Assembly: GCA_947494335.1 (NCBI GenBank) | Contig: CANLUT010000003.1 | Span: forward strand, 261,381 to 325,380 | DNA: 64,000 nt | Direction of reading: 5' to 3' | Origin: Oligoflexales bacterium | GTDB lineage: Bacteria > Bdellovibrionota_B > Oligoflexia > Oligoflexales > RGVZ01 | In this document: positions 8,057 to 28,813 of the stretch, piece by piece | How positions within the stretch are numbered: the stretch's first letter is position 1 | Layout of the letters: each line of letters begins with the position of its first letter | Program-made: the position numbers and the translations under genes | Notes under the pieces: model-generated | The model's input: only the letters and a program-made list of their open reading frames with translations | What the model was told of the DNA's origin: nothing | Databases searched by the model: none

Positions 8057-8060
8057 CTGG

Positions 8061-8210
8061 TTAATGATCCTTCTTGTTCATGGCGTCCAGATATCGTTCA
8101 AGCCGCCTGCGACTTGCTAGAAGCCAATATGAGTAGCCGATCGTGCAGAGGGCGCCTATAACGTATGCTGCAGCGATGTAGGGTGTAGGGTCAGTTTGTG
8201 GTCCGTACAT
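8061..8210 (-). CDS. ccmD: CcmD-like small membrane protein
   Basis: A 49-residue protein in the exact ccmD position, between ccmC (3 bases) and ccmE (4 bases). It reads MYGPQTDPTPYIAAAYVIG, followed by a membrane helix (ALCTIGYSYWLL) and a basic, amphipathic tail with RRRLERYLDAMNKKD. CcmD proteins have this form: a short N-terminus with PYIxxAY, one helix, then charged residues. In System I it helps release haem-loaded CcmE from the CcmABC complex. Confidence 0.85.
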   Translation of the reverse strand: MYGPQTDPTPYIAAAYVIGALCTIGYSYWLLASRRRLERYLDAMNKKDH

Positions 8211-8213
8211 AGA

Positions 8214-9651: not shown

Positions 9652-10272
9652 TCAGTTCCCTTGCCTCCCGAGCTTAATCGTCTCATGATCTAATCCAATC
9701 ATGAGGCGTTCGTCATGGGTCACAACAATGGCAGCTCCACCTGTTGCAATGTGCCGTTCAAGATTGTTGCGAAACTTTTGACAGGCTGCATCATCAAGTC
9801 CGAATAATGGCTCGTCTAAGATCCATAGCCTTGAGGCCTCGAGGTCGAGCCTGGCTAGTGCCAGTCTACGACGCATACCTGTCGAAAATCTTGAAATCGG
9901 TAGGTTCTCTTGAACCCAGACACCTGAAAGCCCCCAGTCAGATAACGCGGACTCAAGAACTTCATTGGGTAAGTTCCTGCCACGAAGCCTTAGCCAAAAT
10001 TCTAAATTGGCTGTTGCAGATAATGAAGGGATGAGGCCATTGGCGTCAGCAGCTATCCAGCTGGTCCAAGAGCGATAGTCGTTGGGTCCGTCAAAAATGA
10101 TCTCACCTTGAGCGCCTGAGATCAGGCCTGTGATCAGAGAAACTAAAGTACTCTTGCCTGAGCCATTTGCTCCCGCAATGCGAATGAGCGATCGATCACC
10201 AACTTCAAAAGAAAGATTTTCGAAGAGCGGTCGGTTTTTAAAAGCAAATGTTAGTCCCTGAACTTTCAGCAT
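9652..10272 (-). CDS. ccmA: Haem exporter ATP-binding protein CcmA
   Basis: A 206-residue ABC ATPase: Walker A GANGSGKST, signature FSTGMRRRLALARL (in place of the common LSGGQ, as often in CcmA), and Walker B LWILDEPLFGLD. It is the first gene of the ccm operon. About 200 bases upstream separate it from eutC, so a promoter should lie in that gap. Together with CcmB it powers CcmE release in cytochrome c biogenesis. Confidence 0.92.
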   Translation of the reverse strand: MLKVQGLTFAFKNRPLFENLSFEVGDRSLIRIAGANGSGKSTLVSLITGLISGAQGEIIFDGPNDYRSWTSWIAADANGLIPSLSATANLEFWLRLRGRNLPNEVLESALSDWGLSGVWVQENLPISRFSTGMRRRLALARLDLEASRLWILDEPLFGLDDAACQKFRNNLERHIATGGAAIVVTHDERLMIGLDHETIKLGRQGN

Positions 10273-10480
10273 GGCCGGGGAGTATAGCTAAGGAGGTGAA
10301 TGGATGCTACGGGATTGTCCACCGTTTGCCGGGGATTTAAAGATCTAGAAATATTGACTTAATTTCGCAGCAAGGCGGGGTTGTCACATGAGAAGGCGCT
10401 TCATTGGGACGGTCCATTGCCTGAACAGTGAATTCGTCTTCTTGAGCAGAGCTCTGGAAAAAATATAAAGCCTTGATGCC

Positions 10481-11230
10481 TTATTTCTTCGCGAGAGATG
10501 GGTACTCGATTTTAAGATCGACGCCGCTTAGTTGACGGTGAAACGATGTTTTGATGAGATGATCAGCCATGATGGCGGCACCCTCCGGCGATATACCCGA
10601 CGCATGTATGTTTGAAATACAGTTGCGGCAAGCGTCCGTGTTTTCCGCTCGGGGTTTGAATGTATAATAGATGCTGAGTGATTCCGCAGATGCCAGGCCA
10701 GGTCGTTCTCCGATTAGCATCACAACAGATTTTGCTCCCAAAGCTTCGCCGATATTATCGCCAAGTCCGACGCGTGCATATTTAGCTAATACGACGGGGC
10801 CGAGTGATAATCCCGATTGTTTTAACAGTTGCATAAAATGATCGACAAAAGGTTTGCCGTTTTCGTGCACCGCGTGAGCTGAAAGTCCGTCAGCAATCAC
10901 TAGAATTAAATCGCATTGATCGGTCTTTTTCTGTCCAAGCACACTGTCTGACGAGGTATTTAGCGATCGTCCCAAATCAGGATTTAGTAGAAACTCCTGC
11001 TTTGATCGGCATCTCGACTGGACGTCCACAAAGTTTAAATTGGAAGTCTGTAGATACTCTCTCATAGCAGTGAAATCGACTTCACTCCAGACGCTGTCAC
11101 GAGCCTTCGAGTGTGCCAAGCGAAAATTTAGGACTTCGTTCGTGGGTGTGCCATGTCCTGCGCGTCCCAGAGCAATCCGCGCATGAGTAAATCGTTTCAG
11201 AAAAGACCATGGATCATGACTGGATGTCAT
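10481..11230 (-). CDS. eutC: Ethanolamine ammonia-lyase small subunit EutC
   Basis: The light chain of the adenosylcobalamin-dependent lyase that converts ethanolamine to acetaldehyde and ammonia. The start region DPWSFLKRFTHARIALGRAG is diagnostic, and GDNIGEALGAKSVVMLIGERPG plus AENTDACRNCISNI match the conserved core and C-terminal cysteine region. The length of 249 residues is slightly short compared with about 295 in E. coli, as in many short EutC proteins. Its ATG overlaps the eutB stop (ATGA). The 10273-10480 gap downstream holds no gene that I can see. Confidence 0.95.
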   Translation of the reverse strand: MTSSHDPWSFLKRFTHARIALGRAGHGTPTNEVLNFRLAHSKARDSVWSEVDFTAMREYLQTSNLNFVDVQSRCRSKQEFLLNPDLGRSLNTSSDSVLGQKKTDQCDLILVIADGLSAHAVHENGKPFVDHFMQLLKQSGLSLGPVVLAKYARVGLGDNIGEALGAKSVVMLIGERPGLASAESLSIYYTFKPRAENTDACRNCISNIHASGISPEGAAIMADHLIKTSFHRQLSGVDLKIEYPSLAKK

Positions 11231-12627
11231 AGATCACCCGATGGAAGTAGTTTTGTAGCTTGTGTCAAGAATGAGCCTTGAAGCTGTTTGGAATAGGACA
11301 GTCTCCCTTGGTTGTCTGAAAGGCCGAGTCTCTGCATCCAAAGGTCAAATTCAGGGGCGGGCTTTAGCCTTAATGTTTCGCGAATGTATTGAGCGTCGTG
11401 AAATGACGTAGATTGGTAGTTGAGCATGATGTCATCAGCCCCTGGAACGCCCATGAAATAATTACAGCCAGCAACTGCCAGTAGCGTCATCAAATTGTCC
11501 ATATCATCTTGGTCGGCTTGAGCGTGATTGGTGTAACAAACATCGCACCCCATCGGTAAGCGCAGCATTTTGGCACAGAAGTGGTCCTCCAGCCCAGCGC
11601 GTGTAATCTGTTTGCCATCGTAAAGGTATTCCGGTCCAATGAACCCAACTACTGTATTCACTAGGAATGGATTGAACAATCTCGCAACTCCATATGCTCT
11701 AGCTTCAAGGGTTTGCTGATCGACGTTGTGATGCCCGCGGGCTGAAAGACATGATCCTTGGCCGGTTTCAAAGTACATGACCTGGCCTTGGCCTCTTGAT
11801 AAAGATTGACCCGCATCCATGGCTTCTCTCAAGATCGATAAGTTAATGCCGTAGCTCTGATTGGTTTTTTCAGTGCCTGCTATTGATTGAAAAATCAGGT
11901 CCACCGGACAGCCGCGATTAATTGCCTCGATCTGGTTAGTCACATGACCGAGGACGCAGGATTGAGTGGGAATGTCCATGCTTGAGATAATGTGATCAAG
12001 AGTCTTTAGAAGCTCGGTCATACGGTCAATGCTGTCTGTCGCGGGATTTATTCCAATAACAGCGTCTCCGCAACCGTACAGAAGACCGTCAATTGTGGCA
12101 GCAATGATGGCTTTGATGTTATCGGTTGGATGATTTGGCTGCAATCGAATGGCCAGGTGCCCTTTCTTACCAACTGATGAGCGAAACTTTGTTACGACCT
12201 CGATTTTGGCAGCTACAGAGATCAAGTCTTGATTTCTCATGAGCTTGCTTACTGCAGCCAGCATTTCAGGAGTGAGACCCGGAGCAAGCTTGACGAGCTC
12301 CTCGTCAGTAGTTTTTTCTTGGAGCAAATGCTCTCTAAATTGTCCCACAGTCAAATGCGACACGGGGCGAAAAGCATCTTGATCCCAGGAGTCACAGATA
12401 GCCCTAGTCACTTCATCAATTTCGTAAGGAATGAGATGTTCGGAAGCAAAAATCCTGAGCGGGAGATCGGCCATGCAAATTTGTGCTGCAACACGCTCTT
12501 CTTCGCTTTTTGCTGCAATGCCGGCTAGTACGTCTCCTGATCTCAGCGGTGAGGCTTTAGCCATTAAATCGGCGAGGGATGAGAACCGGTAAGTTTTGTT
12601 TCCGATAGATGTTTTAAAAGAGCCCAA
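11227..12627 (-). CDS. eutB: Ethanolamine ammonia-lyase large subunit EutB
   Basis: The heavy chain with the substrate and cobalamin site. Strong family matches include LRSGDVLAGIAAKS, YFETGQGSCLSA, NTVVGFIGPEYLYDG, MGCDVCYTNHAQADQDD and CNYFMGVPGADDIMLNYQ. The start is TTG, with only a weak AGAAAG site, but the alignment of the N-terminus with EutB supports it. The length of 466 residues is normal. No microcompartment, aldehyde dehydrogenase, EutA or transporter gene is near, so the pair appears to work as a plain cytoplasmic ethanolamine catabolic enzyme. Confidence 0.95.
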   Translation of the reverse strand: MGSFKTSIGNKTYRFSSLADLMAKASPLRSGDVLAGIAAKSEEERVAAQICMADLPLRIFASEHLIPYEIDEVTRAICDSWDQDAFRPVSHLTVGQFREHLLQEKTTDEELVKLAPGLTPEMLAAVSKLMRNQDLISVAAKIEVVTKFRSSVGKKGHLAIRLQPNHPTDNIKAIIAATIDGLLYGCGDAVIGINPATDSIDRMTELLKTLDHIISSMDIPTQSCVLGHVTNQIEAINRGCPVDLIFQSIAGTEKTNQSYGINLSILREAMDAGQSLSRGQGQVMYFETGQGSCLSARGHHNVDQQTLEARAYGVARLFNPFLVNTVVGFIGPEYLYDGKQITRAGLEDHFCAKMLRLPMGCDVCYTNHAQADQDDMDNLMTLLAVAGCNYFMGVPGADDIMLNYQSTSFHDAQYIRETLRLKPAPEFDLWMQRLGLSDNQGRLSYSKQLQGSFLTQATKLLPSGDL

Positions 12628-12733
12628 ATTAAAAATCTTTCTAGCAATCAGTTAGTATTCGCAGTGACCCGTGATTCTGTCACTGTGCTAGAATATCACG
12701 AAATTTGTTTTGCTCATTAACGGAAGGTGTTAA

Positions 12734-13786
12734 TTGAGGGAAAAAAATCAAAGATTATCTCTACGGCACTTGGTACTTCGTCTTCTTGTGATAATGACGA
12801 TTCAAGTCCCCTGCTCATTTGCAGTCCCGGAATCCGACCTCTTGAAGACCTGGAGAGATATCTATGGTGATTGGCAAAAGACGAATTGCGTTTGGCTTCG
12901 CTATGAGTCCAGTAGTGGAAAAAAGACGGGATTCGCACGATGCGGAGTTGGAAATAAGCCGGTAGTGATCCTACCGGGGTATAGTGAGCCGGCGCTAAAG
13001 TACATGGAAGCGGTTTACGATCTAATTAAAGCGGATACGGGCCTCGGTCCTTTTTATGTTTGGGAGTTACCAGGGCAGGGAACCAGTGATCGACTGGGTC
13101 CGACAGCTTATTTGGTCCATGTTGACACTCCAGACAGGTACATCGATGACTTTCTAAGATTTATGGAGAAAGAGGTCAGGTCTAGATATTCATCAAAGCC
13201 AATTCTTGTGGCTCATTCTACAGGTGCCCTCATTGCTTTCAATGCAGCCGCACGGCGGTCGGGTGATATCTCTAGGATCGTTGCGCTATCGCCGTTAGTC
13301 CGGCCCGCCCTTCCTTTGCCAAGTAGCATTGTCGGTTTGATTGCTCAATTCTATAGATGGTTTGGATTTGGTTCCTCCTCCGTATGGGGGCAATCGTCTA
13401 AGCCTGTTGAAGATCAAAGGTACGCTACAAATAAATCGACAGATTCTAGCGTCAGGTGGAGCATTTCACATAGTGTCTTAGTTGAAAACCCGAATCTTTT
13501 CAGCCACGGCGTTAGCTGGGATTGGCTTTCATCGGTATTGGATCGAGGAGATGATATTCTCGCCAATTATAGATACATAAATCTTCCGGTGACGATCATG
13601 AAACCGGAATCAGATTTTTATGTCAGTGGAGCGGCATCTGACGCTTTCTGTAAAAATCTCGCCGACTGCTCATCGACAATAATTGCTGGGAATATGCACG
13701 AACTGCTGCAGCTATCTGACAGTAAGCGAAACGTGGTTATGAGTGCAATTCTTAATAAAATAAGTTCAGTACCTGATAGCAACTAA
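12734..13786 (+). CDS. Exported alpha/beta hydrolase (lysophospholipase-like)
   Basis: A 350-residue protein with an N-terminal signal peptide (hydrophobic LVLRLLVIMTIQV then CSFAVPESD). The hydrolase fold shows the oxyanion region VVILPGYSEP, the nucleophile elbow VAHSTGALIAF with serine in A-H-S-T-G, and a late histidine in GNMHELLQ. This is the layout of monoglyceride lipases and lysophospholipase L2-type enzymes. The start is TTG with a GGAAGG ribosome site. It precedes a phospholipid methyltransferase-like gene, which fits a role in lipid turnover, but the substrate is not shown by the sequence. Confidence 0.78.
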   Translation: MREKNQRLSLRHLVLRLLVIMTIQVPCSFAVPESDLLKTWRDIYGDWQKTNCVWLRYESSSGKKTGFARCGVGNKPVVILPGYSEPALKYMEAVYDLIKADTGLGPFYVWELPGQGTSDRLGPTAYLVHVDTPDRYIDDFLRFMEKEVRSRYSSKPILVAHSTGALIAFNAAARRSGDISRIVALSPLVRPALPLPSSIVGLIAQFYRWFGFGSSSVWGQSSKPVEDQRYATNKSTDSSVRWSISHSVLVENPNLFSHGVSWDWLSSVLDRGDDILANYRYINLPVTIMKPESDFYVSGAASDAFCKNLADCSSTIIAGNMHELLQLSDSKRNVVMSAILNKISSVPDSN

Positions 13787-13924
13787 TCTATCACTCTTGT
13801 GCCTATAAACGCATTTGTTGTCATTTCATGCACGGTTCTGATTTTGCTAGTTGCATGGCGCTTTCTCAGATAAAGATTTCTGTCGGTTGTTATTCGCCAA
13901 GCCAACCACCTGCGGAGGTTTTTG

Positions 13925-14506
13925 ATGAGAACACACGAAGACCAGTTTTTATTTCTGAATGAATTCATACGCCATCCGCTGCGAGTGGCAGCTGTTCAGC
14001 CATCATCCGAGGCCTTCGTCAACGATCTGCTAGCGGGTGTGTCCTTTGAGAAAGATGGTGTGTTTGTTGAGTATGGTGCTGGAACAGGGGTTGTGTCCGC
14101 GGAGATCTGCAGGCGAATGTCAAACGGATCATTTTGTGTTGCAGTCGAGCCCAATAAGTCGTTCTGTGATTTTTTGAATAATGTTGATAGTCGGATGCGT
14201 GTCATCTGTGACTTTGCAGAAAACGCAAGCGAGAAGATACTTGAGCTCTACGGTCCTGCAGATGTTATTCTGGCAGGGTTACCGTTTTCACTTATGTCTG
14301 AGGAGACAATATCTGTCATTCTAAAAGAAGCTAAGAATCTCCTCGTTTCAGATGGCGAGTTGCGCTTATTTTTCTATGCGCACTCTCTTTTAGTTCCTAA
14401 AGTTCAAAGGATGTTGGATTCAGTGTTTGAGGTATTTTCTCTGACTTGGACCAGCGTCTCGTGGAATAATATTCCCCCAATGGCGGTTGTTCGCTGTCTA
14501 AATTAG
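13925..14506 (+). CDS. Phospholipid N-methyltransferase-like (PmtA type) methyltransferase
   Basis: A soluble SAM-dependent methyltransferase of 193 residues. It begins FLNEFIRHPLRVAAVQPSS, which is typical of PmtA-like and KsgA-related phosphatidylethanolamine methyltransferases, then VEYGAGTGVVSAEI (SAM motif I), VAVEPN, and ILAGLPFSLM. PmtA enzymes convert phosphatidylethanolamine stepwise to phosphatidylcholine. The ATG at 13925 has a GCGGAGG ribosome site. The 138-base gap to the hydrolase holds no gene. The substrate is inferred from family resemblance only. Confidence 0.75.
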   Translation: MRTHEDQFLFLNEFIRHPLRVAAVQPSSEAFVNDLLAGVSFEKDGVFVEYGAGTGVVSAEICRRMSNGSFCVAVEPNKSFCDFLNNVDSRMRVICDFAENASEKILELYGPADVILAGLPFSLMSEETISVILKEAKNLLVSDGELRLFFYAHSLLVPKVQRMLDSVFEVFSLTWTSVSWNNIPPMAVVRCLN

Positions 14507-14525
14507 TGCTTACCGAAGGGGAGAA

Positions 14526-15683
14526 TTAGTCGAGTACCTTTTCACCCCGCATATCTAAAGATGTAGCGAAACTAAATCCGTCAGGAATGCTGATTCCTAC
14601 ATACATTTCCTTTAAATCGTCCCATGAAACCGAGTAGAACCCTGAGGATCCATCGTATCGGCCCCAGGTATTTTCGATTTTGAGACGTTCGATTCGTGAT
14701 TTTGAATCAAGGCGGTAACCAACGATATTAACGACATGACCGTCAATATGTCCGACCAGTGGTTTTTGGATCACGGTCATGATTCCATTTTTGATGCGGA
14801 TTCCAGAGTCGCTCCAGTTGACTGAGAGTAAAACACTGCGTCCCGAGGAAATTTCATGAACGATCGCTTTTTCAATATTTTCCCAGCTGGTTAAAAATCC
14901 GTTTTGAACCGTCTGAAGGTGTTCCTTAGTTGGTTTGCTTGGATAATGTGGCTTGGCCAGGTAAATTACATATGCTTCAGGATCTTCTGGAGCAAACGTT
15001 TTAGCAAATTCCAAAGGAGATGTTTTCTTGCCATCGAACATAAACCAGGTGGGTTGGTGAACGTTATATGTTTTTAAAAGAGATTTGAAATGACTCTCTG
15101 CAGATGCCAGCAGGGGTTTTGTGTCTTTGCCCTGGATGTTGTGTTCTTTAAACTTTTGGCGATACTGCAGGGCGATTTCGTTCAACTCAACTGCCATCTG
15201 ACCCCACTTGTTCGCTGGTTGTGACCAAGTTTTTTCCGGCATAACTCCGTAACGTCGAGCGAGTTGCCGAACTTCATTCATTTCTCCTCCGGATTCTAAC
15301 TCTGCTGAGATAACTTTTGCGCCTTGAATAATACGATAAAATCTCTCATGAAGGCTCGACATCATCATGTGTTCAGCTGATAAGGCGAGGCCCTTGCCGG
15401 TTTTCTTGTAGTGGGCAAACTCAAGTTCCTTGATTCCCGCCTGTAGCCAGCAGGTATTCAGCCAGTTTGTCAGGCGCCTCGATACATCGGGCAGTTCCTT
15501 GGTCATCCTGAATTCCGGAAGATGGCTTTTCGAGTTTTCCGAGCGCTTAACAGGGTCTTTTTCAGAGCCTGAAAGGACAGATGGCGAAGTTATCTGTGTT
15601 CCGCGACATCCACTTAAAAGGGACAAGATCAGAAGGGAGTGGCTGAGTCTATTTTTTAATTGTGGGACGCTTTGAAAGGTCAT
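14526..15683 (-). CDS. Papain-like (C1B, bleomycin hydrolase type) cysteine peptidase lipoprotein
   Basis: The chosen ATG follows AGGAG, and the signal peptide ends in SLLSGC, a strong lipobox. The papain triad is recognisable: cysteine in LNTCWLQAG (like RCWxF in bleomycin hydrolase), histidine in HVVNIVGYRLD and asparagine in IENTWGRYDG. The DALSAEHMM-like stretch (LALSAEHMMMS) also fits the C1B family. C1B peptidases are normally cytoplasmic aminopeptidases; this one should sit in the envelope. It follows an outer-membrane protein gene by 14 bases, so the two are likely one operon. Confidence 0.8.
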   Translation of the reverse strand: MTFQSVPQLKNRLSHSLLILSLLSGCRGTQITSPSVLSGSEKDPVKRSENSKSHLPEFRMTKELPDVSRRLTNWLNTCWLQAGIKELEFAHYKKTGKGLALSAEHMMMSSLHERFYRIIQGAKVISAELESGGEMNEVRQLARRYGVMPEKTWSQPANKWGQMAVELNEIALQYRQKFKEHNIQGKDTKPLLASAESHFKSLLKTYNVHQPTWFMFDGKKTSPLEFAKTFAPEDPEAYVIYLAKPHYPSKPTKEHLQTVQNGFLTSWENIEKAIVHEISSGRSVLLSVNWSDSGIRIKNGIMTVIQKPLVGHIDGHVVNIVGYRLDSKSRIERLKIENTWGRYDGSSGFYSVSWDDLKEMYVGISIPDGFSFATSLDMRGEKVLD

Positions 15684-15697
15684 CAAAACTCCTGTGA

Positions 15698-16876
15698 TCA
15701 CATGGATCCAAGATCAATATAGATAATGGCGGTAGTTCTGCGCTCGATCTCGCGATGATTGTTGATCCCAATATCAACAGCATTGGTCGAGGCTTCAACT
15801 CCGATTAGTCCTAGGTTCAGATGAGCCCCAGCACTCCATCCTGCATCATTGCCCCCAACACGAAGACCCAGAGGGCTTTTGCTATATCCATCCCCGAGCA
15901 GAAGTTCGAGGCCCCCGCGAATTTTTTTGCGAGCCGCCATGTGTTTTTGCGTGAGATATCCTCCCTCGAGGATAAAATTAAGGCGCCCAATTTTTCCAAG
16001 AGCTGGTGATATTGAGAATCCCGCTGTTAGGTCCTCATCATAGGTAAGAGGCTCGTCTTCCGAGTTAGTAGCTGTGTTTTGCGTATTTCCAAGGTTTCGC
16101 GCAACCAGTGAGAATGCCGGGTTCGCTGCCTTCGGGATTCGAATTGTGATTCCTGCATTCAGTGATTTTGCAGCGAATTCACTTCGATTTTCTTTGAGAA
16201 TTTTTTTTCGCTGATAAGAGTCGACCATATCGACGTAGTCGAATGTGCCTGATGTTTCTTCAATAGTACCGTAAGCTTGCGAGACCCCGAGCAACACGCG
16301 CTTTGACTTGTCTGAGGCCGAGGCGCCCAGCATTATGCCACTAAATGACCGGTATCGTAATTTTACTTGTCCTGAGTCGTCACCTACCGGAACAGCGGCG
16401 AGCTGATGATCGACTACAGGGACTATGGCGGTATTACCGATAAAAAGACCTAGGGGCACAATCGACGCGCGCGCAAACTGCCGCTTACCGGAGTGGGCAT
16501 CGATAATCGCTGCTCCTGTATTAGCGTCATTTTGGGCCTGTTGCGCATTAAATTCAGAGCGTACAGTGCCAGCATTCTGATTGAGACTACCGGCCGCGTA
16601 TGGAAAATAGAGTGATTTGACCATTGATGATCCATCACTTTTGCTGTTGAGACCGAGTCCAGCAATACTAGCCGGGTTGTAGTACAGAGCGTCAAGGCGA
16701 TCGGCAAGAGTGCTGAGAGCACCGCCCAGTCCTGCAGCCCGGCAAGAGGCAAAGGGAGATGGATCAAGCACAGTATCCGTATTAGGCAAGGAAGATGTAC
16801 TTGTTTGCGCGTATGCGAACTGCGACAAGCCAGCAAAAAATAGCCAGATGCTAACTTTTCCAGTTATTGGTTCCAA
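15698..16876 (-). CDS. Outer-membrane beta-barrel protein (PorV/FadL-like)
   Basis: A 392-residue protein with a signal peptide ending AYAQ. The conserved start of the barrel, CRAAGLGGALSTLADRLDALYYNPASIAGL, matches the FadL/PorV/PorQ type in which a YNPA element follows the first strand. The rest alternates hydrophobic and polar residues and ends in an aromatic-rich strand (RRTTAIIYIDLGSM). The start is TTG with a strong GAGGAGGGG site. It probably shares a transcript with the C1B lipoprotein. The cargo is unknown. Confidence 0.78.
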   Translation of the reverse strand: MEPITGKVSIWLFFAGLSQFAYAQTSTSSLPNTDTVLDPSPFASCRAAGLGGALSTLADRLDALYYNPASIAGLGLNSKSDGSSMVKSLYFPYAAGSLNQNAGTVRSEFNAQQAQNDANTGAAIIDAHSGKRQFARASIVPLGLFIGNTAIVPVVDHQLAAVPVGDDSGQVKLRYRSFSGIMLGASASDKSKRVLLGVSQAYGTIEETSGTFDYVDMVDSYQRKKILKENRSEFAAKSLNAGITIRIPKAANPAFSLVARNLGNTQNTATNSEDEPLTYDEDLTAGFSISPALGKIGRLNFILEGGYLTQKHMAARKKIRGGLELLLGDGYSKSPLGLRVGGNDAGWSAGAHLNLGLIGVEASTNAVDIGINNHREIERRTTAIIYIDLGSM

Positions 16877-17026
16877 ACGTCCCCTCCTCGTGGCCTTTTA
16901 AAGGGCCAGGTTAGGTATCGGGGAGCTTGTTAAAAACTATAGGGAAAATGGCAAAATAACCGCATTAATACAGTGATTACGGGTATTTAGGAGTTATAAA
17001 ACAGCTGCTGAGATGGTCGTCCAAGT

Positions 17027-17680
17027 CTATTTTTTAAGTTCAGAGCGCAACACCATCCAAATTTCGAAGTATTTCCAAGCAGGCGGTACATCATGCCCCT
17101 GTTCGTGATCAGGTCGTAAAATTAGATCACCGGTGGCAGTCAGGAGGCGTCGAACCTCCGCATTTTGTTCCAGCTTAGACTTCATCGCATGGTAAATAAT
17201 CTTGTAGTGGTCGCCTTTTTCCGGCGTGCGATAGGTCATCTTTTTGCCCTGATAAGTGACCCAATTGATGTTCATCGCTTTCATATTTTGTTCTGCGAGG
17301 TTGCCGGCATGCTTTGCTTCAAAGCCCGTCATTTTCGCAACTTGATCTCGCGTAAACTTCCAAACCAGTCTTGGAAATTTCAAGCGTTCATCCTCTGCTC
17401 CTTCAGGATATTTCATCATTTGCCAGAAGCCTTCGATGCCTGGATATTTTTTACCGTCAAGCTCAATAGGGGTTGCTGCAAAGTTCGAAAGAATTCCAAG
17501 CTCAGTTCTCTTGGATAAAATCACCTCACCTGGTTTTGCTTGCTGGGGAAGTATCTCCCATGATGCAGCATCGCTTCGCGGGACCGGCTGCCACCACGCG
17601 GCAGGATAATTCGTTTTCTGAATACCTTTTCCCATTGCTGGTAAAGATAAAGATGCCGCAAGTAATATGACAAGTTTCAT
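17027..17680 (-). CDS. Exported NADAR-domain protein (YbiA-like fold)
   Basis: After a signal peptide (MKLVILLAASLSLPAMG) the protein reads ILSNFAATPIELDGKKYPGIE and GFWQMMKYP, which is the opening signature of NADAR/YbiA proteins. It continues with NLAEQNMKAM, an alpha-helical middle, and the ending VRRLLTATGDLIL. The ATG at 17680 has a CAGGAG ribosome site; the frame extends 13 codons further without one. NADAR proteins act on riboflavin intermediates or remove ADP-ribose from guanine in nucleic acids, all in the cytoplasm. Export of the domain is unusual. Its length of 217 residues fits one domain plus a signal. Confidence 0.75.
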   Translation of the reverse strand: MKLVILLAASLSLPAMGKGIQKTNYPAAWWQPVPRSDAASWEILPQQAKPGEVILSKRTELGILSNFAATPIELDGKKYPGIEGFWQMMKYPEGAEDERLKFPRLVWKFTRDQVAKMTGFEAKHAGNLAEQNMKAMNINWVTYQGKKMTYRTPEKGDHYKIIYHAMKSKLEQNAEVRRLLTATGDLILRPDHEQGHDVPPAWKYFEIWMVLRSELKK

Positions 17681-17930
17681 GATTGCAAGAACTCCTGGAC
17701 TACTAGAACGGACGTACACAAGTTTTTTTGAACAAAAAAAACAGCGAAAACTTTAAATATTCCTAAACGATACTGCGTCGATTGAAAAACATACTAAAAA
17801 TGCATTGATTTCGATGGGATCACAAAGGCTTATACATTTAACAGCGGTTTTTTTGAAGGTCGCATGAATTCGGCTTACCATAGTAGAAGACCTTTCATCA
17901 TCAAAAATCATAACCTTTTACGGGGTCATC

Positions 17931-20408
17931 ATGAAGCCAACTGCAACTGGTCGATTACGAATTGCATCAATTTTTGCCATGATTTTGGCCTTTGTTGCTG
18001 TCAGTTACGCTTGTAAGCCACGAACAGACGCCTCCCGGGTTCAGGGTGATGAATTATCTGGACGTGGGTCCTATCCGATTTGGTCTTATGATGCAGGGCC
18101 GAACCCTAAAACGGACATTGGCAACGAACTAATCAATCTCCAAGCAAACATTCCTTACTTCCCCGGTCTCTCGTATGCCATCTTTGGTGATCAAATGTTT
18201 CGTCCAGCATTTGGTCCAGTTTTGTGGCGTATGCTCCAAGAGCCAAACAGTGTAAAGATTCTTTTCATTGGTCAGGATGCTACCCATATCGCTGAGGCTG
18301 CTGGCCGCACGGCGACCGCAGGATTCGGTGGGCGTGCGCAAGATCTAGCGAAATATTTTGGTGTTGGCTCGAGCGCTGCTTTCATCAACACATTCCCTTA
18401 TACCATTCGCTGGCAGTACTCATTTTTTGATGCTCCCATCGTTAATGGTGCGTCTGGAAGCGAGAAGCTATCGTACGGATCACTAACTTCAAATCCTGTT
18501 TGGTTGCTATCTCAAGATCTTGAAAGTCCGATCGTCAAGTGGCGCAATCAGTTGATTTCCTGGATTATCAAAAATAATAAAAAGTCTCTGAAGATGATCG
18601 TTTTGTTCGGTGGTGCAGCACGAGACACCATGGGCACATTCATTACAGCAAATGGCGGAACGGTTGGTAGTCGCTACGATGCGGCAGAACTGGCGAATAT
18701 CAAGGTGCCAGAATTTCAATATGTCTATAGCGGCGGTAACACTCAGGCTATAAGCCCATTGACGGCTGACGGAAAAGATCTTTACCGAGAGTTCAATGGT
18801 CAAGCCCCGAACTACGAAGATGAACCCAAGATGAACGAGTTGCGCTCGAGATTCCAGCAGGATTTCAATGCCAACCCGTCACGCTGGACCCAGAAAATGG
18901 TTTTCTCGCGCGGCGGCGTTAAGGGAAGTGGCGTGATTCATCCGGCCCAAATTGGTGGCTACGATGTAAACCGAAAAATGATGGTCAATGGTAAACAGAC
19001 AATTTCTCTCAAAGGTATGAAGCTACAGGATGGAACTTTGATCGATGGCGATTTACTTGTCACCCAGTTACCACACCCGACTGCATTGAGTAGCATGACG
19101 GATACAGATGCTTCCGCTGCTGTAAAAAATGGAATCAAGCCGCTTGAGCCGTACAGCAGATCTGGCTGGAAGATTGAGCCAGATCGTGGATTTTCGAGTG
19201 CGTTTACAGAAGGCAAAGACTACCGCTATGCAAGAGCTTCGATGGGAACAGAGTACTATGATTTCGGAGCTCCGAATTCGCGTATGGTGAATGTATCGTC
19301 GGCATCTCGCATGTCTACGAATGTGATTGTCTTCGGTACGCGCGACAAAGTTAGTTTTGATCAGGAGGCGATCAAGTCGATGACGTACGCAACTCCGTCG
19401 TCTTATCCGCCTAATAGCGAAGTTTGGCTGACTAAACCGAATAGTACCGATGGTTCTCGTAACCAAAGCCTGAAAAATCGTCGCTACGCATTTGATCCGG
19501 GGCCTCCTGAAGAATTTGCAAAATTGATGAAAACATCTCTACCAAAAGACGAAAACTTCATCCGCAAGCGCGACGATAACGGTGATTATGCGCACTACCG
19601 CGGTACCTTTAACGCTCCACGTGTTTTGATCGTCGCTGATCCAGACGGTTATGACGATCTGATTACGGCAAGAGCGCTCACTGGAACTCGGGGCCAGTAT
19701 CTGCAGTCATTAATGGATAGCATGGGTGTTGGTACAAATTATCTCGTCATTAAAACGGCGCCCTACGGTCAGGATCCCGATTGGCAAGATACATTCAATG
19801 CTACTAAGCCTTATAGAGAAGCGCTGCTTAAGAAGATCGTTTCGTCCCATAAGCCTGAACTGGTGCTAACAGACGGGCCCTTTGCAAAAGCAGAAGTGGC
19901 ACGAATTCTTACAGCAAATAGCTTAACCGTTGTAAACATCGAGCGTAGTGGCAATGCTAACAGTAGTGGTATTGAACAAGCAGTCGCTCAAATCAAAAAA
20001 ATTCCAGCTTTTAGCCGTGCATCTTTCTCGGGGAAGATGACAGATATTCCTCGTCTACACATGACATATTATGCTCGTGCATGGGAAGGCACATCGGGTG
20101 ACCGCGTGATTGCATCGCCAGATCCTAAGTATGCTGGGAAGGCTTACGCATTTGTAGCGCCGCGTTGGGCTTATCAACAGAAGTATTCCATGCCAGCGAA
20201 TGAAATTGCAGGCTGTGAGAAATTATTCATGAAAGCAGTTCAGGCAAAAGTTCGTCTGGGTGGTGAGCCAATCGTTAAAATGTCTGAGCGCTTACGCACT
20301 GGTGTAGTTCCGGCTAGTCCTTGTCAGGGGCTAAGTCGTGAGGATACATCATCGGTCGAAGTCGATACGATAAGTTCAGTAGAAGAGACCAGGCCTGAGC
20401 GACTTTGA
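17931..20408 (+). CDS. Exported protein with two uracil-DNA-glycosylase-like domains
   Basis: An 825-residue protein with a signal sequence ending SYAC (residue 28), so either a lipoprotein with a weak lipobox or a secreted protein. The first domain (about 60-420) has KILFIGQDATH (residues 109-119, compare GQDPYH), KMIVLFGGAARD (compare VVFLLWG), and LPHPTALS (380-387, compare HPSPLS). These are the three hallmark segments of uracil-DNA glycosylase, in order. A second domain (about 560-700) has VLIVADPDGYDD then GTRGQYLQSLMDSMG, like family 4/5 enzymes. Catalysis and target are unknown. It starts with an ACGGGG site and ends at a clear terminator. Confidence 0.7.
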   Translation: MKPTATGRLRIASIFAMILAFVAVSYACKPRTDASRVQGDELSGRGSYPIWSYDAGPNPKTDIGNELINLQANIPYFPGLSYAIFGDQMFRPAFGPVLWRMLQEPNSVKILFIGQDATHIAEAAGRTATAGFGGRAQDLAKYFGVGSSAAFINTFPYTIRWQYSFFDAPIVNGASGSEKLSYGSLTSNPVWLLSQDLESPIVKWRNQLISWIIKNNKKSLKMIVLFGGAARDTMGTFITANGGTVGSRYDAAELANIKVPEFQYVYSGGNTQAISPLTADGKDLYREFNGQAPNYEDEPKMNELRSRFQQDFNANPSRWTQKMVFSRGGVKGSGVIHPAQIGGYDVNRKMMVNGKQTISLKGMKLQDGTLIDGDLLVTQLPHPTALSSMTDTDASAAVKNGIKPLEPYSRSGWKIEPDRGFSSAFTEGKDYRYARASMGTEYYDFGAPNSRMVNVSSASRMSTNVIVFGTRDKVSFDQEAIKSMTYATPSSYPPNSEVWLTKPNSTDGSRNQSLKNRRYAFDPGPPEEFAKLMKTSLPKDENFIRKRDDNGDYAHYRGTFNAPRVLIVADPDGYDDLITARALTGTRGQYLQSLMDSMGVGTNYLVIKTAPYGQDPDWQDTFNATKPYREALLKKIVSSHKPELVLTDGPFAKAEVARILTANSLTVVNIERSGNANSSGIEQAVAQIKKIPAFSRASFSGKMTDIPRLHMTYYARAWEGTSGDRVIASPDPKYAGKAYAFVAPRWAYQQKYSMPANEIAGCEKLFMKAVQAKVRLGGEPIVKMSERLRTGVVPASPCQGLSREDTSSVEVDTISSVEETRPERL

Positions 20409-20430
20409 TTTGATTTGGCCCAAGAACAAT

Positions 20431-20465
20431 AAAACCCGCTCCAATCGGAGCGGGTTTTCATTTTG
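20431..20465 (+). terminator. Bidirectional intrinsic terminator
   Basis: AAAACCCGCTCC (20431-20442) pairs perfectly with GGAGCGGGTTTT (20447-20458) around a 4-base loop, and T-rich sequence follows on both strands. It separates the convergent genes that end at 20408 and 20475. Confidence 0.92.
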
Positions 20466-20474
20466 TGAATACTA

Positions 20475-21371
20475 TTAATCCAAATTGAAAACAGTCTTTA
20501 CCGCGCAGTGATCAGAGATGGTGTCGTTATATCTCTGGAGGGTTCTGCGATCAGATTGGTTGCAAGGGCCAATGATGTGATGAAAGCTGACTTTATCTGC
20601 TAAGGTCCCAGTGATCCAGGCACGATCAAATTTCGCAGGTTCATAGCTTTCGTGAGTCGTTGCCCAGGAAAATTTTTCAGGAGATGGGACTTCTTCCATT
20701 TGGCTTCCTGCAAGGATTCTGGAGAAGTTTTCTGGGTCATCGCCGTATGTGTTGAAGTCGCCAACGATTGTTACCGGAAGAGTTTCGCTATCGCGCTTAA
20801 TATATTTGGAAATGACTTCCATCTGTCGGAGTCTCGTCGATGAAAAATCTGGAGCAGACTTCAAGTGAACGGCGAAAAGATGCATGACGGCTTTCCCGCC
20901 ACTGGTTTTGACGATTCCGTGAACTGCTGGTCGAAGCTCTCCATTGAGATCGACTTCGTCTAAAGTATAGGATTTTGAACCGGGAGCTTTTTCAAATTTT
21001 AAATGAGGCTTGACGCAAACGACTACGTGTTGATGCTCGGGGTCCCTGTGATTGTATGAGTAACAGTTGTAGCGCTTTTCAAGTAGGACGTCAGACAGCA
21101 ACTTAACGTCGACGATTTCCTCAAATGCCAGGACGTCAGCCATCAGGCCGCTGTCAGTCATGTGTTTGCGAATAGTTTGTATTCTAATCTCGTCTCTGGA
21201 GGCTTTGTTTTGAGATGTGTTGTGTTCTTTGGATCCAAACCAACGAAGGTTGAATTGAGCAAGACTAATTTGCTCTTTTCCGCCGTCAGATCGGGATGCT
21301 TTGGCGGAATACCCGCCACTCATGGTCATGGCTAGGAAGGTGAAGAGTAAATGGGACAACTTGAGTTTCAT
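20475..21371 (-). CDS. Exported endonuclease/exonuclease/phosphatase family protein
   Basis: The ATG at 21371 follows AAGGAG and gives a signal peptide (HLLFTFLAMTMSGGYSAKAS). The EEP fold is shown by LAQFNLRWFG (catalytic asparagine), ADVLAFEEIVD (metal-binding glutamate), LFAVHLKSA, TIVGDFNTYGDD and ISDHCAVKTVF. All key residues are present, so an active phosphodiesterase is likely. DNase I-like nucleases and sphingomyelinase-type enzymes share the fold, so the substrate is open; the Y/W/FG insert and the context favour a nuclease. It is 298 residues long. Confidence 0.85.
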   Translation of the reverse strand: MKLKLSHLLFTFLAMTMSGGYSAKASRSDGGKEQISLAQFNLRWFGSKEHNTSQNKASRDEIRIQTIRKHMTDSGLMADVLAFEEIVDVKLLSDVLLEKRYNCYSYNHRDPEHQHVVVCVKPHLKFEKAPGSKSYTLDEVDLNGELRPAVHGIVKTSGGKAVMHLFAVHLKSAPDFSSTRLRQMEVISKYIKRDSETLPVTIVGDFNTYGDDPENFSRILAGSQMEEVPSPEKFSWATTHESYEPAKFDRAWITGTLADKVSFHHIIGPCNQSDRRTLQRYNDTISDHCAVKTVFNLD

Positions 21372-21656
21372 GCAGGCTCCTTCTGCAGTTAGCGGCATCG
21401 CACCACAACGCCCGCATTCCATGCGGACTATTAAAAACACAACTTTGATTGACTCTTACTAAATAGTGTAACGCTTATTTTGGAGCTTGGAAATATTAAA
21501 AATTGTAACAGAATAGAATAATAAATTCGATCTCTTAGCGACAATAAGAATTATGACGAAAGTTTAATCCGTAAGCGAACATCAGCAACTGCCATATCGC
21601 TTTTACCAGAGAGTAAAGCCATACGGCAGTTGTATGTTAGTCAATGGCGACTTGAT

Positions 21657-23183
21657 TCAGTCTTCAAAGAACTCTTCTTTTTTAAGCAGAGGGAAAAGGA
21701 TGACGTCCCTGATGCTAGGGCTATTTGTCAAAAGCATACACAAACGGTCGATACCAATTCCTTCTCCGGCTGCCGGCGGCATTCCGTATTCGAGTGCGCG
21801 GACGTAATCATAGTCAACATCACAGGCTTCCTCGTCACCGCTAGCCTTGGCTTCTGCTTGTTCTGAGAAGCGTTCAAGCTGATCAGTGGGGTTGTTAAGC
21901 TCATTAAAGGCATTGGCGATTTCCCAGCCATTCACAAATAATTCAAAACGGTCTACGACATCGGGGTTCTTGTCGTTGCGTCGCGCCAGAGGTGATATCT
22001 CGGTTGGGAAGTCAGTAATAAATGTTGGCTGCACGAGACCGCCCTCGGCGAACTCTTCAAAACAAAGAACCATCAGCTTGTCAGCAGATAGTTTCGTAAG
22101 AGTTTTCTCATCGTGACCCTTTGCTTTCAGTTTTTGAATCATCGACGCCGGTTGTCGTGTTTCTGCTTCCGTTAAACCGGTCGAAGCGACAACCGCCTCG
22201 CGCATGGTCATACGCTTAAATGGCATTGCGAAGCTGATTTCTCGCTCGGCAAAGGTCACCGACTCTTTGTTATATAGATGACGAACAAGCCCGTTTAGCA
22301 ACTCCTCAGTCAGTCGCATGTGATCTTCATAAGTGGCCCAGGCCTCATAGAACTCGATCGACGTGAACTCGGGATTGTGCTTGATGGAAAGGCCTTCGTT
22401 GCGAAAACAACGGTTCATCTCAAAGACTTTGTTAAACCCGCCCACAAGCAGTCGCTTCAAATGAAGTTCAGGCGCGATGCGCATGAATAGCTCCATATCT
22501 AAGGCGTTGTGGTGGGTCAAAAATGGCTTGGCAGTTGCTCCCCCGGCGACGGAGTGCATCATCGGCGTTTCAACTTCGAGATAGCCACGGTCGTAAAAGA
22601 AATCACGAATATATCGCACAATCATGCTGCGCTTGCGCAGCGTGTCCCGGCTCTCGGCGTTCATAGTCATGTCGACATAGCGCATGCGGTAACATAGCTC
22701 TGCATCTGTTAGACCATGAAACTTTTCAGGAAGCGGACGAATAGATTTGGTGACAAGTTTGAATTCTTTGGCGTGGATGGCCAATTCGCCTTTTCCGGTG
22801 CGGAACATATGGCCGCGCGCCCATATAAAATCGCCGTAGTCCAAGAGCTTGTATTCGGCAAAATCAGCCTCGGAGAGATCGTTTTTACTCACATAAATTT
22901 GCATTCGTCCCACGCCGTCATCGCAGTCGATAAAGGCAGCTTTTCCAAAGTCGCGTACCAGCATGGCTCGACCCGCTAGCGCATAATCTGTGGAGATGCC
23001 GGCAAGTTCTTCTTTGGTCTGAGCATCGTGGCGTTTGCGTAGCTCAACAGACGAAACGTTCGGCTTTAAATTTGTCTTGTAAGACAAAGAGCCCATCTCC
23101 ATCATCTTGGCACGTTTATCCAAACGCGCATCGATCTGTTCTGAAAACGTGTCGGTCCATTGCTTGACGAATTTTTCACGCAT
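21657..23183 (-). CDS. lysS: Lysine-tRNA ligase (class II)
   Basis: LysS charges tRNA-Lys. It has an N-terminal OB-fold (VRDFGKAAFIDCDDGVGRMQIYVSK), then class II motif 1 (RSMIVRYIRDFFYDRGYLEVETP), motif 2 (EMNRCFRNEGLSIKHNPEFTS in parts) and motif 3 (GIGIDRLCMLL). The DYDYVRALEYGMPPAAGEG stretch is characteristic of LysS. The ATG at 23183 with AAGAGGATC gives 508 residues; upstream codons are not needed. The 285 bases downstream (21372-21656) hold no gene; a 7-bp imperfect hairpin at 21587-21631 lacks a T run. Confidence 0.96.
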   Translation of the reverse strand: MREKFVKQWTDTFSEQIDARLDKRAKMMEMGSLSYKTNLKPNVSSVELRKRHDAQTKEELAGISTDYALAGRAMLVRDFGKAAFIDCDDGVGRMQIYVSKNDLSEADFAEYKLLDYGDFIWARGHMFRTGKGELAIHAKEFKLVTKSIRPLPEKFHGLTDAELCYRMRYVDMTMNAESRDTLRKRSMIVRYIRDFFYDRGYLEVETPMMHSVAGGATAKPFLTHHNALDMELFMRIAPELHLKRLLVGGFNKVFEMNRCFRNEGLSIKHNPEFTSIEFYEAWATYEDHMRLTEELLNGLVRHLYNKESVTFAEREISFAMPFKRMTMREAVVASTGLTEAETRQPASMIQKLKAKGHDEKTLTKLSADKLMVLCFEEFAEGGLVQPTFITDFPTEISPLARRNDKNPDVVDRFELFVNGWEIANAFNELNNPTDQLERFSEQAEAKASGDEEACDVDYDYVRALEYGMPPAAGEGIGIDRLCMLLTNSPSIRDVILFPLLKKEEFFED

Positions 23184-23369
23184 AATGACGATCCTCTTAA
23201 GAGCTTGAAGGGTGCACCATATCAAAGTCAGGATGCATAAAGCCACCAAAAGCTAAATATGTTAGACTGATAGGGTTCAATAAGGACGTTCTTGAGCCTT
23301 CTGGCTTTGGAAGTTTAAGTGTTCTGTCTAAAATATAAACAAAAGCCTGCCGATTAGGTGCTTCTTATT

Positions 23370-24146
23370 ATGATTGATGCCCACGCCCATCTTTCAGATC
23401 CAAGACTCGGAGCGGACATGATTCTGCTAGCCGATCAATTGAAGTCATTGGGCCTTGAACGCGTTGTTCTTGGAGGCGTAGACCCTAAGGAGTGGCTATT
23501 TCAGGCAAAACTAAAAAAAGCCAGGCCGACATTTATTTCCCCGGTGGTGGGAATTCACCCGTGGACGGTTCGCGATCACGATGAGTCTGAGTTGGAGGCG
23601 ATGTTTCGCACCCTTGAAAATTCAATCACAGGTGCCGACGCGATTGGGGAGGTTGGACTGGATTTTCATCCAAAAAGAACCACTGAGCAGTTGGATAAGC
23701 AGTCACGGTGGTGTCTGCGCCAATTAGAGCTTGCGCAAAGGGTCGGGTTGCCTGTGGTGCTGCATGTGGTTCAAGGCCATGACGTTATGCAGAGCCTCCT
23801 AAAGAATGTGTCGATTAAGGGTGCTTTGGTGCATGGATTTCGGGGGTCGTCAGAGGTTGCAAAATTTTATCTTGCGCGTGGGTTCGTTCTATCTTTGGGC
23901 CAGCGTTCGTTTAGAGGGCTGGAGTACGATGATTATCGATGGTTGCCGCAGTCCGGGTTTGTGTTGGAAAGTGATGCGCCACCTTTGGCTAAAGACGTTT
24001 CCAATATCAATGCGGTCAGCCATGAATGGTTGAAGTCTTTAGATGAAGCGGCCGCATTTCTGGCTGCTATGTGGTCATTATCAAAGGCAGACGTTTGGAG
24101 ACTTGCTGCGCAAAATCTTGCGCGCATGATACCTGAGCCGTATTGA
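23370..24146 (+). CDS. tatD: TatD family metal-dependent hydrolase
   Basis: A 258-residue TIM-barrel hydrolase with the metal ligands of the TatD family: IDAHAHLSD (HxH), GEVGLDFH (glutamate), LHVVQGHD and VHGFRGS (histidines), and LESDAPP (aspartate). TatD enzymes have 3'-5' DNA exonuclease activity and remove damaged ends. The ATG at 23370 opens the HxH motif within four residues, as is normal. It stops one base before the stop of the M28 peptidase gene on the other strand. Confidence 0.85.
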   Translation: MIDAHAHLSDPRLGADMILLADQLKSLGLERVVLGGVDPKEWLFQAKLKKARPTFISPVVGIHPWTVRDHDESELEAMFRTLENSITGADAIGEVGLDFHPKRTTEQLDKQSRWCLRQLELAQRVGLPVVLHVVQGHDVMQSLLKNVSIKGALVHGFRGSSEVAKFYLARGFVLSLGQRSFRGLEYDDYRWLPQSGFVLESDAPPLAKDVSNINAVSHEWLKSLDEAAAFLAAMWSLSKADVWRLAAQNLARMIPEPY

Positions 24147-25433
24147 TTATTTTGTCAGACCGTAGACTGTGTTTGCTGCGGCGCGCGTCATTTTTTCCAT
24201 GTACGTCCAATTGACCTTTTGGACCGTGTCGCAGGTCCGGTGATAGCAGGGATTGCCATCGCCACCGAAAAAATTTTGGCTCACAACAATAGCCGGCCGG
24301 TCGTACTCCCAAAAAACGGCATGATCACTGCGGTTAGTGCAGGCGTCTATTTTTTTCAATGGGATGCCGTCCCGGCTGATGGTCTGCAGCAATGCCTGGC
24401 TTAATGAGGGAGAAGTGTTCTCGTTGCAGTCGATAGTGTGAAACGCACCATCATTGTCACTGTCATAGCCGGTCATTTCTATATTTATAAGGTTGATTTT
24501 GGGCATTTCACCCGATTTATTCAGGTCGCGAGCGTAAGCCGTACTACCAACGAGGCCACGCTCTTCTTCGTCAAAAGCGACAAATCTTATAGTTCGGCGA
24601 AGATCTTTACCGGCAAGAGCGCGTGCAATGGTCAATGATGAAATGGTCCCTGACCCGTCATCGTCTGCGCCGGCGGTTTGAACTGTATCCAGGTGGCCTG
24701 AAACCATAATGATTTGATCATCAACGGGGTTTGCTGGGCGTTTTTCGGCGACTAAGTTGACACCAGAACTATAACGATGCTCTGAAACCTGGAATCCTAG
24801 GGCTTCGTAGGCTGTCTTCAACCATGCACGGGCCTTCGTCTTGTTGTCAACAGAGGCTCTATTGGTCAAAGTGTATTGCTGCCCGTCAATGACAATGGGG
24901 CGGGCACCAGAAAGTGACTCTAGGTCCTCGCGCATGCGAAGTGGGTCAATGTCTAGGCCTTTAATTGGTGTTGAGAGAATAGATAGATTTGATACCGATT
25001 CAGGTGACTTTTGAGCAGATGGATTCTTGATCTCGGATAAATCAATTTTCCTGGGGTGAGCCATCAAACCGAATCTACTTGCTAAGAGAAATGCTTCGCG
25101 TTCGTCGCGAGCTGAAAAAACAACGACTCTGCCACTGCGGAATATTTCCGACGCTATTTTCGTAGCGTCCGCGTTGTCGATCTCGACAACGAAAAGATCT
25201 TCATGATCTGGCAGCTCAAAAGTATGGCCACCCGCGACAATGCTTTGGCTTGGGGCTACAACGATTCGCTCATGATCGGTGGCCAATCGCGCAAAAAATG
25301 GAGTCTCGTCTTGTTTGCTGACGACTTTGATAGAAACTTTTTCGTGAGACCGTGACGTCATCTGTCCACAACCAGATGCCAGCACCGTTAATCCCAGGAT
25401 CCAAAGTGGTAATAATTGAAACATGAGCTGCAT
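24147..25433 (-). CDS. M28 family zinc aminopeptidase lipoprotein
   Basis: A lipoprotein (lipobox VLASGC) of 428 residues. The C-terminal half is an M28 peptidase: MVSGHLDTVQTAGADDDGSG (zinc histidine and aspartate), FDEEERGLVGS (catalytic and zinc glutamates), a later aspartate in IEMTGYDSDNDG, and CYHRTCDTV (zinc histidine). The N-terminal 150 residues lack a clear domain. It is likely anchored in the envelope and digests peptides from outside. It is convergent with tatD without any spacer. Confidence 0.88.
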   Translation of the reverse strand: MQLMFQLLPLWILGLTVLASGCGQMTSRSHEKVSIKVVSKQDETPFFARLATDHERIVVAPSQSIVAGGHTFELPDHEDLFVVEIDNADATKIASEIFRSGRVVVFSARDEREAFLLASRFGLMAHPRKIDLSEIKNPSAQKSPESVSNLSILSTPIKGLDIDPLRMREDLESLSGARPIVIDGQQYTLTNRASVDNKTKARAWLKTAYEALGFQVSEHRYSSGVNLVAEKRPANPVDDQIIMVSGHLDTVQTAGADDDGSGTISSLTIARALAGKDLRRTIRFVAFDEEERGLVGSTAYARDLNKSGEMPKINLINIEMTGYDSDNDGAFHTIDCNENTSPSLSQALLQTISRDGIPLKKIDACTNRSDHAVFWEYDRPAIVVSQNFFGGDGNPCYHRTCDTVQKVNWTYMEKMTRAAANTVYGLTK

Positions 25434-27931: not shown

Positions 27932-28813
27932 TCAAAGGCATTTTCTTAGTTGATTAGCTATATTCTTCGGAATGCTTTCACTGACTTCGTCAGCTGTAAA
28001 TGCAGAGACATCAAAATCTTGTCCCAGCTGGGGTCGGCCGCCTGCACTTGCTGCTGTGGACCGTATTGACTCCCATTGTTGTACTGCATTCGGAAATGGT
28101 GGCTCCGGACTGGGTGATTTGTTGCCACCAGTTTTTGGAGTTGCAGTGTAGATAAAAGTGAGGCGCATGTCACTTTCGGATAGCACGCTAAGAATATCCT
28201 TTGGATCATAGTTTCTGACGGCATTTGCAGCACCTGCTGGGGTGCCATCATGTGAGAAAGCGTCTGTGACCAAAAACATTACTTTAATCGAGTCTTTGTT
28301 GTTTCGAGCCAGGCTTAGACCCCGTGCGGCAGCCATTAGTCCTGCCTCGGAAGAGTCGCCACCTTGGAATACGGCGTTGAATTTCTCGCTGATCATCTGT
28401 TTAACCGACTGAAAATTACTCGACATCGGTGATTCGAACTGGATGACGTCTTCAAAAGCGATCAAACCAAAGCGCACAGTTGGTACCTTACCTAGACCTT
28501 CAATGGTCATGTTCGACAGGTTTTCTGCCAAATTTGAAAATGCGGCGTTTACCCTTTCGCTCTGAGGTTTCATACTTCCGCTAACATCCATGGCTAAAAT
28601 GAAGTCGATAGCCGGAGCCTTTTTTAAACAAAGTCCTTCTCCGTCGGTAGAGATCAGATCTCCGCCCTTCCCAGTTGATGGTTTGCAGTTGTTATCTCCT
28701 TTTTTGCATTTTGTTTGTGATAATCCGCCGGCACTGAAATTGCCCTCTGCGCACGCAGCCATAATGCCTGCTGCGGTGATGATGGCTAAAAAGGTTTGCG
28801 GCTTGATCATCAT
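27932..28813 (-). CDS. von Willebrand factor A domain lipoprotein
   Basis: A probable lipoprotein (signal ending IMAAC) of 293 residues. After a cysteine-containing linker (CKKGDNNCKPSTGKGG) comes a vWA domain with the complete MIDAS start DVSGSM, the middle threonine region FQGGDSSEAGL, and LVTDAFSHDG. vWA domains bind partner proteins through a metal ion. It follows the caspase-like gene by 8 bases on the same strand, so the two products probably act together. It converges on tyrS with a 12-base gap. Confidence 0.85.
   Translation of the reverse strand: MMIKPQTFLAIITAAGIMAACAEGNFSAGGLSQTKCKKGDNNCKPSTGKGGDLISTDGEGLCLKKAPAIDFILAMDVSGSMKPQSERVNAAFSNLAENLSNMTIEGLGKVPTVRFGLIAFEDVIQFESPMSSNFQSVKQMISEKFNAVFQGGDSSEAGLMAAARGLSLARNNKDSIKVMFLVTDAFSHDGTPAGAANAVRNYDPKDILSVLSESDMRLTFIYTATPKTGGNKSPSPEPPFPNAVQQWESIRSTAASAGGRPQLGQDFDVSAFTADEVSESIPKNIANQLRKCL

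Follow-up and report, generated by a model that had tools for sequence, protein, structure and literature searches.

The window, by which we mean the whole 64,000-nucleotide stretch of Oligoflexales DNA analyzed here, carries at 17,931–20,408 a single open frame for an 825-residue protein in which the uracil-DNA glycosylase (UDG) fold is predicted twice. A NADAR-like gene and a nuclease gene lie on either side of it, and the three genes together occupy a site that is empty in three congeners. The features are as follows:

16,877–21,656, no strand assigned: three-gene insert between a membrane-protein-like gene (15,698–16,876) and lysS (21,657–23,249), empty in three congeners
17,027–17,719, reverse strand: predicted exported NADAR/YbiA/gp30.3-like protein, 230 residues (PF08010, 1.3e-7, below cut-off)
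17,931–20,408, forward strand: predicted exported tandem UDG-fold protein, single open frame, 825 residues
17,931–18,017, forward strand: predicted signal sequence, residues 1–29, with SYAC at its end, possibly of lipoprotein type
18,066–19,232, forward strand: first UDG-fold domain, residues 46–434, with a long insertion ahead of motif B (AF2, 5gn2)
18,270–18,287, forward strand: motif A GQDATH, residues 114–119 (alignment of 57 homologues)
18,387–18,389, forward strand: Asn153, conserved in 57/57, at the position of the Asn in the BdiUng motif VNTF
19,071–19,091, forward strand: motif B PHPTALS, residues 381–387 (H382 in 56/57, P383 in 57/57)
19,428–20,330, forward strand: second UDG-fold domain, residues 500–800, best aligned over 517–749 (5gn2; PF03167 in homologues)
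19,635–19,658, forward strand: ADPDGYDD, residues 569–576 (D570 in 57/57)
19,752–19,754, forward strand: Lys608, at the UDG Asn position (K in 29/57, R in 24/57)
20,049–20,078, forward strand: PRLHMTYYAR, residues 707–716, probably equivalent to motif B (R708 in 54/57)
20,475–21,440, reverse strand: predicted exported endonuclease/exonuclease/phosphatase (EEP, DNase I-like), 321 residues (PF03372, 7.7e-7)

The frame opens at ATG 17,931, and the N-terminus of its product, MKPTATGRLRIASIFAMILAFVAVSYAC, reads as a signal sequence; because the next in-frame start falls within the hydrophobic stretch, the signal cannot be cleanly removed by choosing another start. Inspection revealed signal-like N-termini across the tandem-UDG family, and 49 of 59 passed a crude hydropathy test, most of the failures coming from upstream starts called in error or from values close to the threshold. 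The sequence-only reading had proposed an envelope or exported tandem UDG, citing a signal sequence, the motifs GQDATH, VLFGGAA and HPTALS in UDG order and a second UDG-like start. All of these are present in the 825-residue frame (GQDATH at 114–119, VLFGGAA at 224–230, HPTALS at 382–387, VADPDGYDD at 568–576 and GTRGQYLQ at 585–592), and the motif matches are far above chance level; the signal sequence recurs in homologues. That reading would have fallen had the folds been predicted as something else or had the true start lacked the signal, and neither proved to be the case: both halves are predicted to be UDG, with 5gn2 as the best match, and no signal-free start was found. Export is thus well supported as a prediction, in the absence of localisation data. 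A family-1 Ung with GQDPYH and HPSPLS is encoded on another contig of the same genome, so the tandem protein is not the housekeeping copy.

Profile comparison with the PDB gave a sole meaningful match for each half, and in both cases it was 5gn2, the structure of BdiUng (Blr0248), the broad-specificity UDG of Bradyrhizobium diazoefficiens (E 8e-5 for the first half, 9e-6 for the second). By structure, the first half folded alone (AF2, pLDDT 87.4) matched 5gn2 with a Z-score of 15.5 over 203 residues, and the second half, in the full-length AlphaFold model, with 16.9 over 228 residues; family-4 UDG, UdgX and SMUG1 ranked next. The Pfam UDG profile PF03167 matched the second half in 14 of 20 family members, several above the cut-off. 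The window protein alone had no match in Pfam, NCBIfam or PADLOC, PF03167 being reached only through family-wide scans, and a PHROGs search returned a single match at chance level. As modelled, both halves are UDG folds. Since the direct hhalign comparison of the two was weak (E about 0.01–0.02), though in register, their common origin rests on the match of each to BdiUng, which has in common with the window protein the GQD motif, the VNT motif and the LGG/FGG strand. BdiUng is a single 272-residue chain, whereas the window protein is a tandem with a signal sequence and a long insertion in its first domain.

Among the 57 aligned homologues, GQ(D/E), Asn153 and His382-Pro383 of the first half are each conserved in at least 56; acid 116 of motif A is Asp in 34 and Glu in 22, one or the other in 56. 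Its GQD, N and HPTALS resemble, in order, the GQDPYH, N123 and HPSPLS of family-1 Ung, although motif A of that family, GQDPY, is not itself matched, the first half having GQD[GA]T in its place and the second ADPxGYDD. In family-1 UDG, the Tyr of motif A keeps thymine out; here, this position is mostly Thr or Ala, and Thr118 in the window protein. Conservation of the catalytic residues favours an enzyme, an activity that is inferred from the alignment and not observed. Weak PstS matches within the first-half insertion (E 0.07) were attributed to chance.

The second half follows its own rules. Across the 57 homologues its strict set comprises Asp570, GxxGQ, Lys/Arg608, Pro611 and Arg708, and because this set is as strict as that of the first half, the domain is not a decayed copy. 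In 53 of 57, a Lys or an Arg stands in place of the catalytic Asn of the second UDG motif, which BdiUng has. By its residues, the second half is a UDG-fold domain and not a canonical UDG. Assignment of Arg708/His710 as the motif B equivalent is inferred from their order only, and the domain could be a binder.

Both neighbours are also predicted to be exported, so that signal sequences are found on all three partners. The NADAR-like protein falls under the Pfam cut-offs for NADAR and gp30.3 (31.9 bits against 36 and 18.5 against 35.1), and its family profile matches YbiA (2b3w) at 1.2e-7. It has the LSNF...E..WQ..K core of the superfamily that includes YbiA, T4 gp30.3 and the DarT-linked NADAR proteins: S78, N79, E96, W99 and Q100 are conserved in 46 of 46 sequences and K103 in 43. 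In the last strand, where the superfamily would have an acid or His, position 223 varies (E, K, D or Q; V in the window), and D204-H205 is invariant. Unlike those relatives, the protein is predicted to be exported and is below the Pfam cut-offs, and no DarT-like gene was noted alongside. The EEP protein scores 29.5 bits against PF03372, above the cut-off of 24.5, and its N, E, H, GDFN and SDH columns are invariant.

Nineteen relatives of the tandem protein from public genomes align over their full length at 42–52% identity, except L021, which ends at a contig end. Nearly all are titled Bdellovibrio-, Bacteriovorax- or Oligoflexia-type bacteria, and they too begin with signal sequences; the scan was built on patterns taken from close relatives and does not rule out members in other phyla. 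Two loci (L022 and L023) are relatives from the window organism's own order. A divergent branch of about 640–890 residues (L106–L128, for example L107 and L113) forms its own clade of 23 tree rows, and the Glu-for-Asp exchange in motif A (22/57 homologues) may belong to it. No tandem-UDG relatives were found in viral contigs, phage records or plasmids, which leaves a phage origin without support.

Within 368 genomes of one phylum, the tandem UDG occurs in 80, the NADAR-like gene in 110 and both in 72; the NADAR-like gene thus accompanies 72 of 80 carriers and 38 of 288 non-carriers (Fisher p about 1e-38, uncorrected for relatedness). In at least 10 genomes other than that of the window, the two lie at most 3 kb apart, arranged in several different orders. 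A broad EEP profile matches 202 of the 368 genomes, making EEP presence uninformative, and we therefore used adjacency alone: EEP and NADAR-like genes are paired head to tail, separated by −12 to 47 bp, in 14 genomes, and the tandem UDG is present in every one of them. The order in L012 is tandem UDG, EEP nuclease, NADAR-like gene; L107, L108 and L109 have the same three genes in other orientations. In L103, an exported S1/P1 nuclease (7892–8833) takes the EEP slot between the tandem-UDG and NADAR-like genes; a nuclease adjoins the tandem UDG in only part of the family. Genome G019 has a NADAR-like fragment that is broken and contains a stop codon, and a different contig holds a relative of the window EEP (L048 and L145); these may be what is left of the same gene set, in the same order.

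In three congeners, lysS adjoins the membrane-protein-like gene, the order is otherwise conserved, and the three-gene set is absent from the site; the exact junctions of the insert were not fixed by alignment. The tandem UDG, the NADAR-like gene and this EEP gene are also absent from all nine other genomes of the window's family. In the tree, the window protein pairs with a Bacteriovoracaceae copy (support 98) and not with copies of its own order. Gain of the set from the Bacteriovoracaceae direction is the simplest reading, with loss in relatives not excluded.

Other features of the neighbourhood were also recorded. A second stretch, 10,273–15,697, is missing from congeners, its flanks (9652–10,272 and 15,698–16,876) being adjacent in L158, L159 and L160; it contains an exported alpha/beta hydrolase, a methyltransferase-like gene, a C1-peptidase-like lipoprotein and an ORF that, by eye only, is like the ethanolamine ammonia-lyase large subunit. 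The exported papain-type protein at 14,526–15,701 is C1/bleomycin-hydrolase-like with Pfam matches, a bleomycin-hydrolase type being unusual outside the cytoplasm. Downstream, a lipoprotein containing a von Willebrand factor A domain (27,932–28,813) lies near a TatD-type nuclease gene (23,358–24,146) and an M28 peptidase lipoprotein (24,147–25,433).

What such a protein does is a matter of inference, and to our knowledge, no activity is known for any member of the tandem-UDG family. UDGs usually work in the cytoplasm or nucleus, which speaks for an ordinary cytoplasmic repair enzyme with a mis-called start; this reading is largely refuted, and we leave it only the slightest chance, given signal sequences common to divergent homologues and both partners, a next start that lies inside the hydrophobic stretch and an ordinary Ung elsewhere in the genome. 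A more serious competitor, though in our view an unlikely one, holds that the UDG folds now serve free nucleotide-like ligands instead of DNA: together with the NADAR-like protein they would dismantle nucleotides, NAD or ADP-ribose derivatives outside the cytoplasm, and the second domain would mainly bind. Lys/Arg608 in place of Asn and the conserved Arg708 would suit a phosphate, the long first-domain insertion is absent from ordinary UDGs, and NADAR enzymes use ribosyl-phosphate substrates (PMC11543638); the first domain, however, retains the whole UDG catalytic set, and EEP and S1/P1 nucleases as neighbours point to polynucleotides.

If polynucleotides are the target, the DNA attacked might be that of a living opponent. 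An enzyme delivered into prey or competitor cells, where abasic sites and a nuclease would wreck their DNA, is quite improbable on present evidence. In its favour, most carriers in the genome contigs searched bear titles of Bdellovibrio/Bacteriovorax-type bacteria, among which predators are common, and the partner nuclease is exported, but no delivery domain or link to a secretion system was seen and ordinary DNA contains little uracil. Alternatively, the set might act in the envelope to keep out foreign DNA, modified phage genomes for example, with glycosidases stripping unusual bases and the nuclease destroying the DNA, an idea to which the relationship of the NADAR-like protein to T4 gp30.3 and the movement of the three genes as a unit lend some weight. 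No PADLOC model was matched, however, and no recognised defence genes were found among the immediate neighbours scanned, and we regard a barrier role as very improbable.

The sequence-only reading offered two functions, action on foreign or prey DNA and binding of another nucleotide-like ligand. Neither is excluded; an exported nuclease and a NADAR-like N-glycosidase beside the tandem UDG favour action on nucleic acid. We consider the tandem UDG most likely to belong to an extracytoplasmic kit for DNA digestion and base removal, its catalysis, substrate and any role in predation being inferred. That it is itself an extracytoplasmic nucleic-acid-processing enzyme, where export too is inferred, we hold tentatively, a little short of an even chance. 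This reading is supported by the twofold UDG fold and the first-domain catalytic residues kept in a family diverged to below 45% identity; by co-occurrence and adjacency with the NADAR-like gene, the head-to-tail EEP/NADAR-like pairs and the S1/P1 nuclease in the L103 slot; and by signal sequences on three partners, the empty site in congeners and the separate Ung. It is weakened by the rarity of uracil in normal DNA, which leaves no obvious benefit in removing it outside the cell, by replacement of the catalytic Asn in the second domain and by the nuclease being a neighbour in some family members only.

In the mechanism we envisage for this kit, the exported nuclease, acting outside the cytoplasm, would cut or open foreign DNA, while the first UDG domain would hydrolyze the N-glycosidic bond of unwanted bases, such as uracil and other deaminated bases. 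Since Thr118 stands where family-1 UDG has its thymine-excluding Tyr, 5-substituted pyrimidines are possible further substrates. The second domain, through Lys/Arg608 and Arg708, may hold or cleave a phosphate-bearing substrate. By analogy with its relatives, whose substrates are ADP-ribosylated guanine or intermediates of riboflavin (PMC11125620, PMC11543638), the NADAR-like protein may remove ribosyl adducts.

In Bdellovibrio-type predators, which re-use prey nucleotides directly, such a kit would clean these ahead of uptake. Bdellovibrio degrades prey DNA and apparently builds the nucleotides into its own DNA at once (PMC7925074), and titles cited in PMC7529429 record uptake of intact nucleoside monophosphates; removal of damaged bases beforehand is a natural hypothesis. 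The secreted Bdellovibrio nucleases Bd0934 and Bd3507, thought to digest prey DNA, are similar in general kind to the nuclease partner described here, but unlike the window set, they are not described as having a glycosylase partner in the literature consulted (PMC7925074). That an exported tandem UDG, an exported NADAR-type N-glycosidase and an exchangeable exported nuclease perform base excision outside the cytoplasm in Bdellovibrio-type bacteria, ridding prey DNA of bases that are damaged or modified ahead of nucleotide uptake, is a realistic possibility that we would nonetheless call unlikely. Clean-up before re-use fits less readily with the window organism itself, a relative of Oligoflexales that is not known to be a predator.

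These findings suggest a previously unrecognised kit, composed of a tandem UDG, a base-glycosidase-like protein and a nuclease, for processing foreign DNA beyond the cytoplasm. DNA glycosylases are familiar as repair enzymes of the cytoplasm or nucleus; a conserved exported one, linked to exported N-glycosidase-like and nuclease genes with which it moves as a set, would, if the reading is true, represent an extracytoplasmic branch of base removal, with a bearing on how predators that build their genomes from prey nucleotides avoid damaged ones.
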